Position numbers and translations under genes: made by a program
Shown: piece after piece, positions 9,541 to 42,516 of the stretch
Numbering within the stretch: the stretch's first letter is position 1
Layout: every line of letters begins with the position of its first letter
DNA from: Minisyncoccota bacterium
GTDB taxonomy: Bacteria > Patescibacteriota > Minisyncoccia > Phycocordibacterales > UBA1006
Direction: 5' to 3'
Assembly (NCBI GenBank): GCA_021209525.1
Contig: JAJOIF010000007.1
Span: forward strand, 1-45,046
Length of the DNA: 45,046 nt
The notes under the pieces: generated by a model
The model's database searches: none
What the model was told of the DNA's origin: nothing
The model's input: only the letters and a program-made list of their open reading frames with translations

Positions 9541-10170
9541 TTATAGTATATCATTATTATCACTGAGTATGTCAAATGAATGACTGCCGGGCTTGAATCC
9601 TATATTATTAAGGGGCCATAAACGGAGCCACGCCTTTCCTACAATAAGGTCTCGCGGAAGCGGTCCCCAAATACGTGAGTCCGAACTAAAACTACGATTG
9701 TCTCCCATTACAAAATAATAATCATCAGGCAGGGTAAGAGATTCATTACGAGCTAGTGTTTCAGTATTTTCAGGAAGATACATTTCTTCAAGAATAAAAC
9801 CCGTAGGATCTTCTTCGCTCGTGATAGTTACTACACTATCAGTAATACGCACAGTCTCTCGAGGAAGAGCTATAATACGCTTGATGAAGAATTGACTTGG
9901 TTGTTCAGGGTACCGAAATACAATAACATCCCCTCGTTGAGGCTCTCTGAAACGATAAGAGATTTCATCAATAATGAGATAGTCACGATGTTCGAAAGTA
10001 GGAATCATTGATGTGCCGCTTACAATAAAAGGTTGTGCAATAAACACACGCACCGGAATAACAATAACTGCCGCGATGACAACAAAGCGTATAATTTCAA
10101 TAATTTGCTCTTTGAGTGTGGGTTCTGTAGATTCTGGTGTAGATTGTTTTTCTAGAGTTTCGTGATGCAT
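9541..10170 (-). CDS. lepB: Signal peptidase I
   Basis: Membrane serine protease that removes signal peptides; 209 aa from the chosen start. One N-terminal membrane segment (residues about 25-45: IIRFVVIAAVIVIPVRVFIA), catalytic Ser in SGTSMIPTF, the Lys in FFIKRIIALP, and the box E motif MGDNRSFSSDSR are present. The frame is open further upstream, but the -35/-10 pair lies in that part and places the transcription start at the ATG at 10170, so that start is chosen. This enzyme would process the secreted proteins at 10.3, 39.7 and 42.6 kb. Confidence 0.93.
   Translation of the reverse strand: MHHETLEKQSTPESTEPTLKEQIIEIIRFVVIAAVIVIPVRVFIAQPFIVSGTSMIPTFEHRDYLIIDEISYRFREPQRGDVIVFRYPEQPSQFFIKRIIALPRETVRITDSVVTITSEEDPTGFILEEMYLPENTETLARNESLTLPDDYYFVMGDNRSFSSDSRIWGPLPRDLIVGKAWLRLWPLNNIGFKPGSHSFDILSDNNDIL
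9545..9575 (-). promoter_or_regulatory. Likely hisS promoter inside the lepB 3' end
   Basis: On the minus strand: TTGACA (9575-9570), a 19-base spacer, and extended -10 TGATATACT ending at 9545. The -10 is 9 bases from the hisS ATG, so the leader would be only 1-3 bases. Confidence 0.5.
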
Positions 10171-10176
10171 GGGTTT

Positions 10177-10205
10177 AGTATAATGAAAAAAACATATGAG
10201 TGCAA
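10177..10205 (-). promoter_or_regulatory. lepB promoter, predicted leaderless
   Basis: On the minus strand: TTGCAC (10205-10200), 17-base spacer, TATACT (10182-10177), then six bases and the lepB ATG at 10170. Standard geometry puts +1 at or next to the A of ATG. Confidence 0.75.
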
Positions 10206-10214
10206 ATATAGTGA

Positions 10215-10242
10215 TTGACAATGCTGCTCTATTTTGTATTAT
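10215..10242 (+). promoter_or_regulatory. Promoter of the secreted orphan gene at 10282
   Basis: TTGACA (10215-10220), 16-base spacer, TATTAT (10237-10242). Divergent from the lepB promoter. It matches the sigma-70 type used elsewhere in the window, not the Bacteroidota TAnnTTTG type. Confidence 0.65.
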
Positions 10243-10281
10243 CATAGAAAACATTTCTGAACTTTTACAACCAAATCTAAT

Positions 10282-11118
10282 ATGAAAAAAATACTCTTCG
10301 TACTCATCTGTGTTGCAGGGGCTCTGTTCTGCTCTGCGCAAAAGAAAACAACGATTGTTATAAAACAAAAGTTTACTAACACAGTAACTCCAATCACACA
10401 AAAGGGTGCCTATGCTGCTCTTGAAGTGATTAAACAAAAACGAGGCCTTGATTTTAATGCTTTTGAAGCAGTGATTGCAATGGGTTTATATGATCCAGCA
10501 ACACGCAAGTCCACTACTTTATATGCTACTGATTATATTAAATACGTGCAAAAGACAGGGACTCTTCTTTGTGTTCGCAATAATGAAATCTTGGGTAGCT
10601 ATGACATACCAAATCATAGAACACCTCACTCGATCAAAGATACGCAACTCTTTTTAGATCGTCCGCACAAACCATTGCGTGCTGAGCGCGATTCTCTTAT
10701 AGAGAGTATACATGCTACGCACGCATTGGTGCAGACGACTTATGTGCAGGGTAATTTTAATAGATATGCACGCACATCAGGTGTATCTGTAACTGTGCCA
10801 GATCTTCAGACAAAAGAGGATGCGCATGCAGATTATGCGAAAGCATTAGACAGAGTAGATTCTCTTGAGAGATGGCATATGAGCGAATCACTTTTTCGTA
10901 TTGCCGAAGAAATGATGCAACATCCTGTGTATATACACATGGATATAAATAAAAAGTACATGTATAAAATATATACACATTGTTTTGTATTATACAATCA
11001 TGAAAAAGGAGAATTGATTTTCAACACACCAGAACGCTCATATAATCTAGTCACAGATTATGAGCGCTACAAAACAGAAATTCGCGACATTATGGAACAG
11101 ATTGTCAGAGAAACATAA
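10282..11118 (+). CDS. Secreted protein of unknown function with Bacteroidota-style signal peptide
   Basis: Protein of 278 aa with no family I recognise. Residues 1-19 form a clear signal peptide (MKKILFVLICVAGALFCSA) with a signal peptidase I site leaving Gln at the mature N-terminus, as is usual in Bacteroidota. The Cys at -3 has Phe before it and does not make a proper lipobox. The mature part is hydrophilic, without membrane segments or repeats, and has a charged helical stretch around residues 185-220. Arginine is often AGA (about 5 of 16), unlike the ribosomal and polymerase genes nearby. It has its own promoter and terminator. The signal peptide closely resembles that of the T9SS-type protein at 39724. 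Function unknown. Confidence 0.8.
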   Translation: MKKILFVLICVAGALFCSAQKKTTIVIKQKFTNTVTPITQKGAYAALEVIKQKRGLDFNAFEAVIAMGLYDPATRKSTTLYATDYIKYVQKTGTLLCVRNNEILGSYDIPNHRTPHSIKDTQLFLDRPHKPLRAERDSLIESIHATHALVQTTYVQGNFNRYARTSGVSVTVPDLQTKEDAHADYAKALDRVDSLERWHMSESLFRIAEEMMQHPVYIHMDINKKYMYKIYTHCFVLYNHEKGELIFNTPERSYNLVTDYERYKTEIRDIMEQIVRET

Positions 11119-38490: not shown

Positions 38491-39534
38491 ATGGCAAAGA
38501 AAAATATTAGTTTTAAACTAAAACAACTTACTAAAAAACTCCTCAAGGAACTCAATGATCGTTCACAGTATGTGATTACGAAACGTTTTGGACTACACAA
38601 GGGCGGCGATGTTTTAACACTTGAAGCAATTGGACAAGAGTACGGCATTACTCGTGAACGTGTGCGTCAAATTGAAAAGATGGCACTCAAAGCAATTCGC
38701 TCATCATCAACATTTGCAGAAGTTGAGCACATTATGCACGAACTCAAAGACATTATTACGAGCATGGGTGGCATCGTCGAAGAATCACACTTGCTCTCGT
38801 CACTTTCAAAAGATCCTGAAGAACAAAATCATATTCACCTGTACCTCCATCTCGGTGATCACTTTGAAAAACTCAAAGAAGACAAACACTACCAAGCTCG
38901 CTGGGTCATCAAAGGAGAAACAGCATCACGTATTGAAAAAGCGCTCAAAGATATTCATGATGCGCTTGATCATCACGAACTCATTCCCGAAGATGAAATT
39001 ATTGATCGCATCCTGTGTCACGATGGTGTCTGTGAAGTCCTTACGACCAATTATCAAACTTCAGAAAATGCTCAAGGATGGCTCAAGATTTCAAAGAAAC
39101 TCGACAAGAATGAATTGGGTGAATGGGGTCGTGCCGCATCACCAAATGTTCGTGCGCGTGGTGTCAAAGATTATGCATACCTCGTTATGCGCAAGCATGG
39201 AAGCCCTATGCACTTCCGTGAAGTAGCAGAAGCTATTGAAAAAACATTTAACCGCAAGACACATACAGCAACCTGTCACAATGAACTTATCAAAGATAAT
39301 CGTTTTGTGCTCGTTGGTCGCGGTGTATACGCACTCAAAGAGTGGGGATACAAAGGCGGTGTCGTGCGTGATGTCATTCGCGAAATCATTGAAAAAGAAG
39401 GCCCTCTTTCAAAAGAAGAAATTGTTGATCACGTACTCAAAGAACGATATCTCAAGAAAAATACTATTCTCGTGAATTTGCAAAATTCAAAATATTTTGT
39501 CAAAGACGATAATGGATTATACAGACTCGCATAA
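38491..39534 (+). CDS. Sigma-70 region 4 / HARE-HTH regulator
   Basis: Protein of 347 aa. Near the N-terminus (residues about 25-70) is a sigma region 4-type helix-turn-helix: LTLEAIGQEYGITRERVRQIEKMALKAIR. No sigma region 2 is present, so it is not a full sigma factor. The middle is helical and acidic. The C-terminal third holds HARE-HTH-like units (VMRKHGSPMHFREVAEAIEK ... RFVLVGRGVYALKEWG, then IIEKEGPLSKEEIVDHVL ... LYRLA), related to the domain in RpoE delta and ASXL proteins. Likely a polymerase- or DNA-binding transcription regulator; this is inference from domains. Confidence 0.8.
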   Translation: MAKKNISFKLKQLTKKLLKELNDRSQYVITKRFGLHKGGDVLTLEAIGQEYGITRERVRQIEKMALKAIRSSSTFAEVEHIMHELKDIITSMGGIVEESHLLSSLSKDPEEQNHIHLYLHLGDHFEKLKEDKHYQARWVIKGETASRIEKALKDIHDALDHHELIPEDEIIDRILCHDGVCEVLTTNYQTSENAQGWLKISKKLDKNELGEWGRAASPNVRARGVKDYAYLVMRKHGSPMHFREVAEAIEKTFNRKTHTATCHNELIKDNRFVLVGRGVYALKEWGYKGGVVRDVIREIIEKEGPLSKEEIVDHVLKERYLKKNTILVNLQNSKYFVKDDNGLYRLA

Positions 39535-39661: not shown

Positions 39662-39690
39662 TTGCGAAAACTTGTTTTTTGTTGTATAAA
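39662..39690 (+). promoter_or_regulatory. Promoter of the T9SS-type secreted gene
   Basis: TTGCGA (39662-39667), 17-base spacer, TATAAA (39685-39690). It is of the same sigma-70 type as the other genes here; I see no Bacteroidota TAnnTTTG box. A 6-bp hairpin (TTATGC / GCATAA) at 39635-39650 lies just upstream. Confidence 0.65.
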
Positions 39691-39723
39691 TAATAAAAAC
39701 ATATAAACCTTAAAAAACAAAAA

Positions 39724-42477
39724 ATGAAAAAAATACTATTCTTACTTATCTCTGTATGTGCTGGAGTTATGCAAGCACAAAAAGTTAATTTTTCTCACGA
39801 AAATTCATGGTATAGCCAAGAGTTTTTATTGGAGCTTTCTACAAACTCTTCTGAAAATATTTGGTACACCATAAACGGTGAAAAGCCTGTTCCTGGAAGT
39901 GCGTACACACTTGAGTATGTGCAACCTATTCCTGTGTATACATTGACTGATACTCCATATCAACTCATAGGGAGAATGGAAGATTTTACTTCAGACCTCT
40001 CTGTATATGAAGGAGGGACAAGTTTTTTTAGCCAAAACGGGCCGGGTTCATTTAGTTTTCTAAACACTATTAGACATGATGAAGTTTTGAAAAAGACTAT
40101 TATTCGTGCCTGTGCTGGTGACTGTCAAAAGATATACACAAGATCGTATGGTATTGGGAATCCTTTGCAGCAATGGGAAATAGAATTTGTATTCGATGAT
40201 CCTGATTTGGTTTTTGACAAGGACTCGGGTCAATATGCACGAGGGGTAGGAATGAATGTTCCATGGTTTCTGTCGCCAACATTATTTGGAAATAATCCTT
40301 TTGGTTTTGACTTATCGGGATTTCCTGATTCTGTGTGGCTAGAAAATTACAGCGTTAATGCTCGTAAACGAGAATTATCTCTTCCTACTATATTAAATCC
40401 CGAAGGATTTAGTTTTCCTGAAATACCAGATCATTGGGATTATACTCAAGCAACAATACTCTTTTACTATAATAATGTATTTATAGAAGAGCTGACTGGT
40501 GAAGTGCGTCCGAATGGTAATGGGCGACTACATGTGCCACTAAAGGGTTGGAAAGTAAAGCTGCACAAATCTCCCAAGACAGATATTCCATTTGCTCGTA
40601 CTGGTAATTTTGTGCTGCGTACACAAACAACATTTAAAGGCACTATCGAAGCGCGCATTACCAGTGAGATTACTAATTTATGGAGTAGCGGATTAAAGGT
40701 TTCTCGCACCACAGATCAAGGAGCACTCTCTGTGTATAATGGTGCATTTCTAGAAAATTTCGGTATGTATGGAATTTTCGAGGCTTCAGACAAGCGCTAT
40801 GCAAAAGAGAACTGGATGATGCGTAACCCAGAACAGTTATTATGGGTAAATGCATCTGATGGTGCAGAATTTCTTTTTCCATCAGCGCATCCTGAATCTG
40901 ATCCTTCGTGGCGAGCTTTAGTAAAAGACACACAGTGGGTATACTCACGCCCTCGTGATTCTTTGGAATTATACGTTGATGCAGAAACATGGATTAAATA
41001 TGCTGCACATAAAGCATTCATTAGACCAAACAGTTCTTGGCATCGAGAACAAAAAGTTTTTTATGATCAAGGAGGTCGCTCACCAAAAACAAGACCGGTA
41101 ATCAAGGACGATGACTCTGCATTTTCTCACCAGAATTTGCAATGGAATCATATTGCAACATTTGTTTCTGGTGATTCTGCTTGGGGTGGAACGAGTGATG
41201 CGATCGAGTACATAGATTTATTTCCTCATTGGGCTCTCCGTGCATCACTGATGCACCCAGAAAGAAGGCACTACTATCAAAATATTATGCTGGATGGTTT
41301 TGAAATGGCAATGCGCTATTCAAAAACAAAACCAGTTTTTGATAGAATTGTTACTGATTTTTGGACTGACTACAGTATTTTTGTACCGGTGCATAGGCTC
41401 AATAATTCTATGGATTCATTGATGCATATCTATCAGCAAGAAAGCATGGATGTATTTTTGCAAAATGCGCCCATAGCGTATCTTCGTGATTGGATAGAAT
41501 TCTTTCATTCTGGATATACACTCGCAGACACTTTTAATGTTCGCATAGTAATCGATCAAGAAATTGATGATTGTGGTATTTATCCAGGAAGTGTGAGAGT
41601 TAATTCGATGCAATTTATTTCTGACGGATCTCGTATTCATGTGCGGGACTATCCACTAGAAATAGAGGCAATTCCCAGTCCAGGGTATACCTTCAGCCAC
41701 TGGGAACAAAATACAGAAAATCAGTCATTCATGCTTATACATGAAGCAATTGATGATGTATGGTTAACCCCTGTATTCATCAAAGAATACAGCGCATGTG
41801 AAGGAAGGGAAGAGCTCATTATTAATGAAGTGCTTCCATGGCATGCTGAACTACCTGACCTCATAGAAATCTACAATCCAACATATCAAGATATTATACT
41901 TGATGGTATGTATATTTCAGACAGGTCTTCAGTTCTCAAGCATCAATTTATTGACGCAGTGATCCCGGCTCAAGGTTTCTTGGTTATCCAAGCAGGAGGA
42001 AGTCCTTCAGATAATGCTGATTACTATGTGAGCGAATTTTCATTAAGTAAAAATGGCGAAGCTGTCTATCTATTTGATGCTGATTCTGTATTAGTTCACT
42101 ATGTAGAATGGGGTGCTGTTGAGTATCCGCTATCTTATGGATACTGTAATAACCAAAAAACCGATGGTGCTATTTTTTCAATGGAAATTATGACACTAGG
42201 AAAGCCGAATGAGTGCTTGGAAGATACCGTAGACACATCTATTGATTTTGTGGAAACATACAACATCAAGGTGTATCCAAATCCTGCCTCTTCGCATATA
42301 AGTGTTACATCTGATATTCAGATTCATGAAATACGTATACTTAACCTTCAAGGTGCTTATGTATATACATCTTCTGAATACACATTTATAGACGTTTCTT
42401 TTCTTTCATCGGGGGTCTATTTTGTAGAAATACAGACACCAATCAAGAAAGAATATGTGAAGTTTATAAAAGATTAA
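39724..42477 (+). CDS. CotH-like / lamin-tail surface protein with T9SS C-terminal sorting domain
   Basis: Protein of 917 aa. A signal peptide (residues 1-18, cleavage before Gln) is followed by a chitobiase-like beta domain (about 25-125; IWYTINGEKPVPGSAY), a divergent CotH-type region (about 155-610; VFDKDSGQYARG, GRLHVPLKGWKV and a KTRPVIKDDDSAF motif near 455-468 with the DxD metal pattern), a bacterial-repeat segment (about 620-690; PSPGYTFSHWEQ), a lamin-tail domain (about 692-830; LIINEVLPWHAELPDLIEIYNP) and a C-terminal type A sorting domain (about 847-917; VYPNPASSHISV, GVYFVEI, VKFIKD). This order is typical of Bacteroidota secreted proteins. About a third of its Arg codons are AGA/AGG, and it is the only gene here with A before the ATG. 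It is probably horizontally acquired. Confidence 0.85.
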   Translation: MKKILFLLISVCAGVMQAQKVNFSHENSWYSQEFLLELSTNSSENIWYTINGEKPVPGSAYTLEYVQPIPVYTLTDTPYQLIGRMEDFTSDLSVYEGGTSFFSQNGPGSFSFLNTIRHDEVLKKTIIRACAGDCQKIYTRSYGIGNPLQQWEIEFVFDDPDLVFDKDSGQYARGVGMNVPWFLSPTLFGNNPFGFDLSGFPDSVWLENYSVNARKRELSLPTILNPEGFSFPEIPDHWDYTQATILFYYNNVFIEELTGEVRPNGNGRLHVPLKGWKVKLHKSPKTDIPFARTGNFVLRTQTTFKGTIEARITSEITNLWSSGLKVSRTTDQGALSVYNGAFLENFGMYGIFEASDKRYAKENWMMRNPEQLLWVNASDGAEFLFPSAHPESDPSWRALVKDTQWVYSRPRDSLELYVDAETWIKYAAHKAFIRPNSSWHREQKVFYDQGGRSPKTRPVIKDDDSAFSHQNLQWNHIATFVSGDSAWGGTSDAIEYIDLFPHWALRASLMHPERRHYYQNIMLDGFEMAMRYSKTKPVFDRIVTDFWTDYSIFVPVHRLNNSMDSLMHIYQQESMDVFLQNAPIAYLRDWIEFFHSGYTLADTFNVRIVIDQEIDDCGIYPGSVRVNSMQFISDGSRIHVRDYPLEIEAIPSPGYTFSHWEQNTENQSFMLIHEAIDDVWLTPVFIKEYSACEGREELIINEVLPWHAELPDLIEIYNPTYQDIILDGMYISDRSSVLKHQFIDAVIPAQGFLVIQAGGSPSDNADYYVSEFSLSKNGEAVYLFDADSVLVHYVEWGAVEYPLSYGYCNNQKTDGAIFSMEIMTLGKPNECLEDTVDTSIDFVETYNIKVYPNPASSHISVTSDIQIHEIRILNLQGAYVYTSSEYTFIDVSFLSSGVYFVEIQTPIKKEYVKFIKD

Positions 42478-42488
42478 TTCATTAACTC

Positions 42489-42516
42489 AAAGCCTCGCTC
42501 ATAGCGAGGCTTTTTT
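42489..42516 (+). terminator. Rho-independent terminator after the T9SS-type gene
   Basis: AAAGCCTCGCT-CAT-AGCGAGGCTTT followed by three more T, 11 bases after the stop codon. Confidence 0.93.

Follow-up and report, generated by a model that had tools for sequence, protein, structure and literature searches.

Why would a patescibacterial chromosome encode a protein with the C-terminal sorting domain (CTD) of type IX secretion system (T9SS) cargo? The question arises from P0001, a predicted secreted protein with a T9SS type A sorting domain that was found, by ORF, translation and Pfam/NCBIfam models, at positions 39724..42477 of the plus strand in the window, the stretch of 45,046 nucleotides from a Minisyncoccota bacterium (contig JAJOIF010000007.1) analysed in this work. 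The reading frame is open throughout and its product is 917 aa long; all features of P0001 given below lie on the same strand. A first-pass annotation had described P0001 as T9SS cargo with the full Bacteroidota layout, and had offered three explanations for its presence: acquisition from Bacteroidota with a vestigial tail, an unrecognised use of the tail, or an assembly chimera.

By eye, the protein begins with a Sec signal peptide, MKKILFLLISVCAGVMQA (39724..39777), followed, as had been claimed, by Gln19 (39778..39780), the predicted new N terminus in the Bacteroidetes Q-rule position. The lamin-tail domain of that description was also recovered, at residues 696-797 (41809..42114; PF00932, 49 bits, cut-off 34.3, E 9e-13). 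The chitobiase-like domain survives only as a chitobiase/Fn3-associated-like stretch at residues 36-73 (39829..39942), which is present but lies below the gathering scores of PF13290/PF13287 (15-19 bits versus a cut-off of 22 for PF13290). The CotH-like domain was not confirmed: PF08757 did not match the whole of P0001 at E<1, nor residues 230-600 at E<10, and since the pattern is seen by eye only and the profile is silent, no CotH identity is claimed. A full-length AlphaFold2 model built from the single sequence was worthless (pLDDT 31). The tail at residues 850-916 (42271..42471), which carries the motifs YPNP ... GVYFVEI ... VKFIK, exceeded the curated cut-offs of both sorting-domain models, with 40.8 bits for PF18962 (cut-off 27) and 37.6 bits for TIGR04183 (cut-off 23), and the E value of 1.6e-9 shows that the match is not due to chance.

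Could the gene be Bacteroidota sequence that was misassembled or misbinned into a Patescibacteria genome? The assembly is a draft of 679,573 bases in 15 contigs (98.6% complete), the end of the tail gene is 2.6 kb away from that of the contig, and signs of contamination are indeed seen in some other genomes, for instance G034. P0001 is, however, embedded in a contig that also encodes EF-Tu, ribosomal proteins, gyrB, rpoB, rpoC, dnaG, uvrA and uvrB (names read from translations, those of rpoB and dnaG assigned by HMM). The flanking genes, noted earlier as patescibacterial-looking, are indeed core genes of a Paceibacteria-type genome, and among named records rpoB shows the highest identity to Paceibacterota/Nomurabacteria. 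Two more tail genes of the same genome occupy family-conserved loci on a 135-kb contig, and the trait recurs in most genomes of the family (see below), so that a chimera is very unlikely and, in our judgement, largely refuted. A hairpin resembling an intrinsic terminator was found behind P0001, as annotated (42489..42513; 11 pairs, 6 of them GC, then a T run). The sigma-70 promoter proposed for the gene could not be upheld, as promoter-like sites around P0001 were at chance level (18 found versus 17.0 expected). Positions 38491-39534 of the window encode sigma-70 region 4 and a HARE-HTH (RNAP delta-like) domain joined in one protein.

The first-pass annotation was right in seeing T9SS cargo in a member of Patescibacteria, and overlooked that the trait spans the family and involves several genes. 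The P0001 genome carries four tail genes, and at least one tail over the cut-off was found in 17 of the 20 genomes (draft assemblies) of the same GTDB family, compared with 15/193 genomes of other families in the order and 9/379 in a phylum sample outside the P0001 genome. The Fisher test, which takes genomes as independent although relatives are not, gave p 9e-14 for family versus order and p 1e-20 for family versus phylum sample. Por_Secre tails elsewhere in Patescibacteria (G411, G300) match the same model as those of the family; they are, however, sporadic rather than family-wide, and several of them are of a YPNPF...GIYFYKI...KMILLK variant, with and without Gln at +1. The 99% complete genome G411, from another Patescibacteria lineage, carries four tails of the YPNPF...KKM type (L221-L224). 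Ten tails were found in G034 (L033, L034, L035), on contigs that also carry transposases and cargo genes in tandem; these stretches look Bacteroidota-like and are probably bin contamination or a mobile island, and the G034 tails were set aside. One tail gene, L063:8136-10090 (G202), is apparently frameshifted, its signal peptide and body lying in a different frame from its CTD.

The tail genes of the family are found at recurrent chromosomal places. At locus A, the order is nusA, a cassette of secreted proteins, the tail gene, tpiA and pgk (names by HMM); in 12 genomes, drawn from four genera, tpiA has a tail gene no more than 7 kb away, mostly in this order, and the representative in the P0001 genome is C14:15759-17552. 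Nine of the ten cassette proteins tested have no Pfam family. Such nusA-tpiA cassettes are seen at L025:11935-15312, L028:7334-13497 and L057:676-7515, and one cassette protein (L057:3775-5847) contains a weak Hint-like stretch. Locus B, where a tail gene sits beside a disulfide oxidoreductase and two conserved genes (fam10/fam12), is present in the P0001 genome (C14:55622-57775) and in two genomes of genus g3. At locus C, which three genomes of genus g2 share and which follows infC-rpmI-rplT, the protein is reduced to a signal peptide and a CTD (102-113 aa), and a fourth CTD-only mini-protein (G199) sits outside this locus; the four signal peptide plus CTD-only genes are L061:8532-8906, L066:4708-5040, L067:7523-7867 and L072:3788-4111. 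P0001 itself had no syntenic counterpart among the family neighbourhoods compared. The bodies of the tail proteins vary (FG-GAP, Big, Fn3-like, M43 peptidase, glycine-rich) and, from one locus to the next, are mostly unrelated, while both protein ends are constant. Syntenic orthologues whose bodies are only 37-47% identical still have Gln+1, the CTD and its C-terminal basic residue, the tail being no more conserved than the body. The tail genes are thus native to the family and old. For practical purposes, the conserved loci and the ends kept in orthologues rule out a chimera and speak against a dead tail; the vestigial tail of the earlier proposal is further disfavoured by those proteins that consist of a signal peptide and a tail only.

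The tail genes also share an unusual leader. Upstream of P0001 it is A-rich, carries a ACCTTAAA element and has no Shine-Dalgarno sequence (39670..39723), and the same type is common to most tail genes of the family. The element TTAAA, which was picked post hoc, after the sequences had been looked at, occurs within 32 nt upstream of the start in 17/23 tail genes versus 83/507 other genes (p 6e-9), and the A content of the leaders likewise differs between tail genes and other genes (p 4e-8). An A-rich leader with a ACCTTAAA-like element may mark a regulon, or it may be left over from the translation leaders of Bacteroidota. Leaders that differ from those of other genes would also be expected if these genomes kept acquiring Bacteroidota cargo genes in recent, independent transfers, with the tails as passive baggage. 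Full-length relatives of P0001 were found neither in the order, nor in GTDB contigs (searched with a peptide pattern), nor in plasmids, and bodies at the same locus differ from genus to genus, which also fits such transfers. Against them stand the within-genus syntenic orthologues that retain both ends, the same core genes flanking tail genes in four genera, and the codon use of P0001, which is inside the range of the adjoining genes. Recent transfer is therefore a very unlikely account of the tails.

If the tails are old, are they still the tails of T9SS cargo? Lauber and colleagues reported that the conserved motifs of type A CTDs specify the fold, with the exception of an almost invariant Lys near the C terminus of the CTD, which is functionally important and contacts PorV (PMC10994853). 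In P0001, the alignment places Lys913 (42460..42462), the fifth residue from the C terminus, as the counterpart of RemZ Lys1110, and a Lys or Arg is found at position -5 or -6 in 24/25 family tails, about one quarter having Arg. A CTD profile, A1, built solely from the 25 family tails matched in the PDB the translocon-bound CTDs of NucA and FspA (8glk, E 4e-14; 8glj, E 4e-12), as well as mirolase, RgpB and RemZ. Modelled by AlphaFold2 from the A1 alignment, the P0001 tail comes out with seven strands (pLDDT 90.7), and the best match of this model among solved structures is 8glk_D, a cargo CTD in complex with SprA-PorV (Z 11.7, 1.4 Å over 71 residues). In the structural ranking, the top five entries are T9SS cargo CTDs, the sixth is PorZ, and the lower rows have Z <=8.9; Foldseek agrees with this ranking. 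The predicted fold of the tail is thus a seven-stranded Ig-like beta-sandwich like that of the solved CTDs, and, as judged from profiles and models, the family tails are authentic T9SS type A CTDs. The PNP motif has been lost in two g3 tails.

The other end of the proteins follows a Bacteroidota pattern as well. The Bacteroidetes Q-rule describes a Gln at +1 after the signal peptide that is cyclised by glutaminyl cyclase (PMC5837995). In all 30 of the 30 family tail proteins whose N terminus could be read, Gln directly follows the predicted cleavage site, the signal peptides having been judged by eye rather than with SignalP. The likeness to the Q-rule pathway ends there. The family's other secreted proteins do not generally have Gln+1: among secreted-type proteins, a crude signal-peptide finder that misplaces some sites counted it in 10/84 within the family versus 2/38 in other families (p 0.34), and a general Q-rule was not established beyond the tail proteins. 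Moreover, neither an animal- nor a plant-type glutaminyl cyclase was found in the 20 family genomes: PF04389 gave 0/20 with the control positive in 14/14, and PF05096 gave 0/20 with the control positive in 3/14. Within the window, a secreted protein of 278 aa without a tail (10282..11118, plus strand; identified by translation) has a leader peptide, MKKILFVLICVAGALFCSA/Q, that is nearly identical to that of P0001. It has no Pfam/NCBIfam family over the cut-off and adjoins a signal peptidase I-like gene (9541-10437, minus strand) in divergent orientation.

A machine to which these ends could be addressed was not recognised in the family. Omp85 (PF01103) was found in 0/20 family genomes, with the control positive in 7 genomes, in keeping with a cell that lacks a regular outer membrane. 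SprA (TIGR04189) had no match in the P0001 genome and none over the cut-off in 197 genomes; the PorU sortase (NF033707) had 0/20 over the cut-off, its one weak match being itself a tail; and GldL (TIGR03513) had 0/20. For these three models no control exceeded the cut-off either, and the results are strong hints rather than proof; a divergent machine might have escaped the searches. The earlier observation that the window holds no T9SS component stands and extends, with the same reservation about controls, to the whole-genome searches. A genuine cargo class thus exists without an evident machine. One way out would be a CTD reader of the family's own, sortase- or PorV-like and so far unrecognised, acting in a single-membrane cell, so that the tail works in cis. 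The family-wide conservation, the conserved position of tail genes beside a cassette whose secreted proteins mostly have no Pfam assignment, and the missing controls leave room for such a reader. We nevertheless consider it unlikely, because the PorU model matches only a tail, and that in one genome, Omp85 is missing throughout the family, and no candidate reader gene emerged.

Alternatively, a Bacteroidota-derived CTD may have been exapted and may now serve on the Patescibacteria cell only as a surface or adhesion domain of compact Ig-like fold, with no T9SS involved. The failure of the family searches to find a T9SS component, Omp85 or glutaminyl cyclase is in line with this, and so is the fold, as the CTD is an Ig-like beta-sandwich and adhesins commonly have folds of this kind. 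The cargo bodies, with their FG-GAP, Big, Fn3 and lamin-tail domains, are typical of surface proteins, and the loss of PNP from two tails also speaks for exaptation. What such a domain explains less well is the strict coupling of Gln+1 to the CTD in every readable protein (30/30), the basic C-terminal residue of nearly all tails (24/25), which is more than the fold reportedly needs, and the occurrence of the same two ends on non-homologous bodies, which looks like a targeting code. We regard exaptation, the main rival of our preferred explanation, as a real possibility, though clearly below an even chance.

A tag retained in several genera at conserved chromosomal positions probably has a reader other than a machine of the family's own, and a Bacteroidota host cell may be that reader. 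Our preferred explanation, held tentatively and at not quite an even chance, is an ancient acquisition of the genes from Bacteroidota followed by selection for their retention, most likely because the T9SS of a Bacteroidota host uses the products in trans. It builds on the observed domains, predicted fold, family-wide occurrence and conserved loci, and on the absence of Omp85 and of the glutaminyl cyclase families; from these we infer the Bacteroidota origin of the genes and the retention of the tails by reading in trans. P0001 would then be one member of an old, family-wide secreted set in a Paceibacteria lineage without Omp85. Having left the Patescibacteria cell through that cell's Sec system, the tail protein would arrive at the envelope of a Bacteroidota host to which the cell is attached. 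There, the host translocon or surface complex (SprA/PorV, PorU) would bind the CTD and display or release the protein at the host surface. The meeting point with the host machine might be the host periplasm, or the host surface via PorV/PorU; residence in the periplasm would bring the protein to the machine and also expose Gln+1 to the host cyclase. The CTD-only mini-proteins are easiest to understand if activity resides in the CTD itself, and they could then be ligands or competitors of the host machine. That the family addresses its secreted proteins to the T9SS or surface-anchoring machine of the host by the host's own code at both ends, and that CTD-only proteins could occupy this machine, is a possible but rather doubtful elaboration.

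Several reported observations are compatible with reading in trans. A single plastic pocket accommodates type A CTDs, the contacts being mainly hydrophobic, and SprA complexes bind purified CTD fusions in vitro (PMC10994853). Gene transfer from Bacteroidota to Patescibacteria has been reported in aquifers (PMC12455944). Acquisition from Bacteroidota, as suggested by the first-pass annotation, fits the evidence, but a donor gene was not found among GTDB contigs and plasmids, and this counts against reading in trans, as does the fact that no known host of the family was found. In addition, Gln+1 and the CTD could both have been simply inherited from the donors, the tails of orthologues show no more conservation than their bodies, and the Arg at the Lys position in some tails together with the PNP loss in g3 suggests a relaxed demand in places. 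Of the explanations first proposed for the tail, an unrecognised use is now the one that the evidence favours.

The family proteins resemble Bacteroidota cargo with a type A CTD (F. johnsoniae NucA, RemZ and FspA) in their signal peptide, diverse bodies, CTD sequence, predicted seven-stranded fold and C-terminal Lys. They differ in that their cells have no recognised SprA, PorU, GldL or Omp85, and in that some of them consist of nothing but a signal peptide and a CTD. A literature search found no paper joining the T9SS or a C-terminal sorting domain with the biology of Patescibacteria/CPR. According to a 2024 paper, no T9SS genes occur outside the FCB phyla, and CTD proteins are likewise missing from Bacteroidetes species without a T9SS (PMC11285876); in contrast, the Patescibacteria family described here has CTD proteins and no recognised machine. 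Its members are tiny and probably symbiotic bacteria, and the CTD proteins suggest Bacteroidota as their possible hosts, no known host of the lineage having been found. With these proteins, host-symbiont protein traffic in Patescibacteria becomes testable with existing laboratory T9SS assays. If the family does address its proteins to the host machine, this would be an ultrasmall symbiont using the secretion system of its host.
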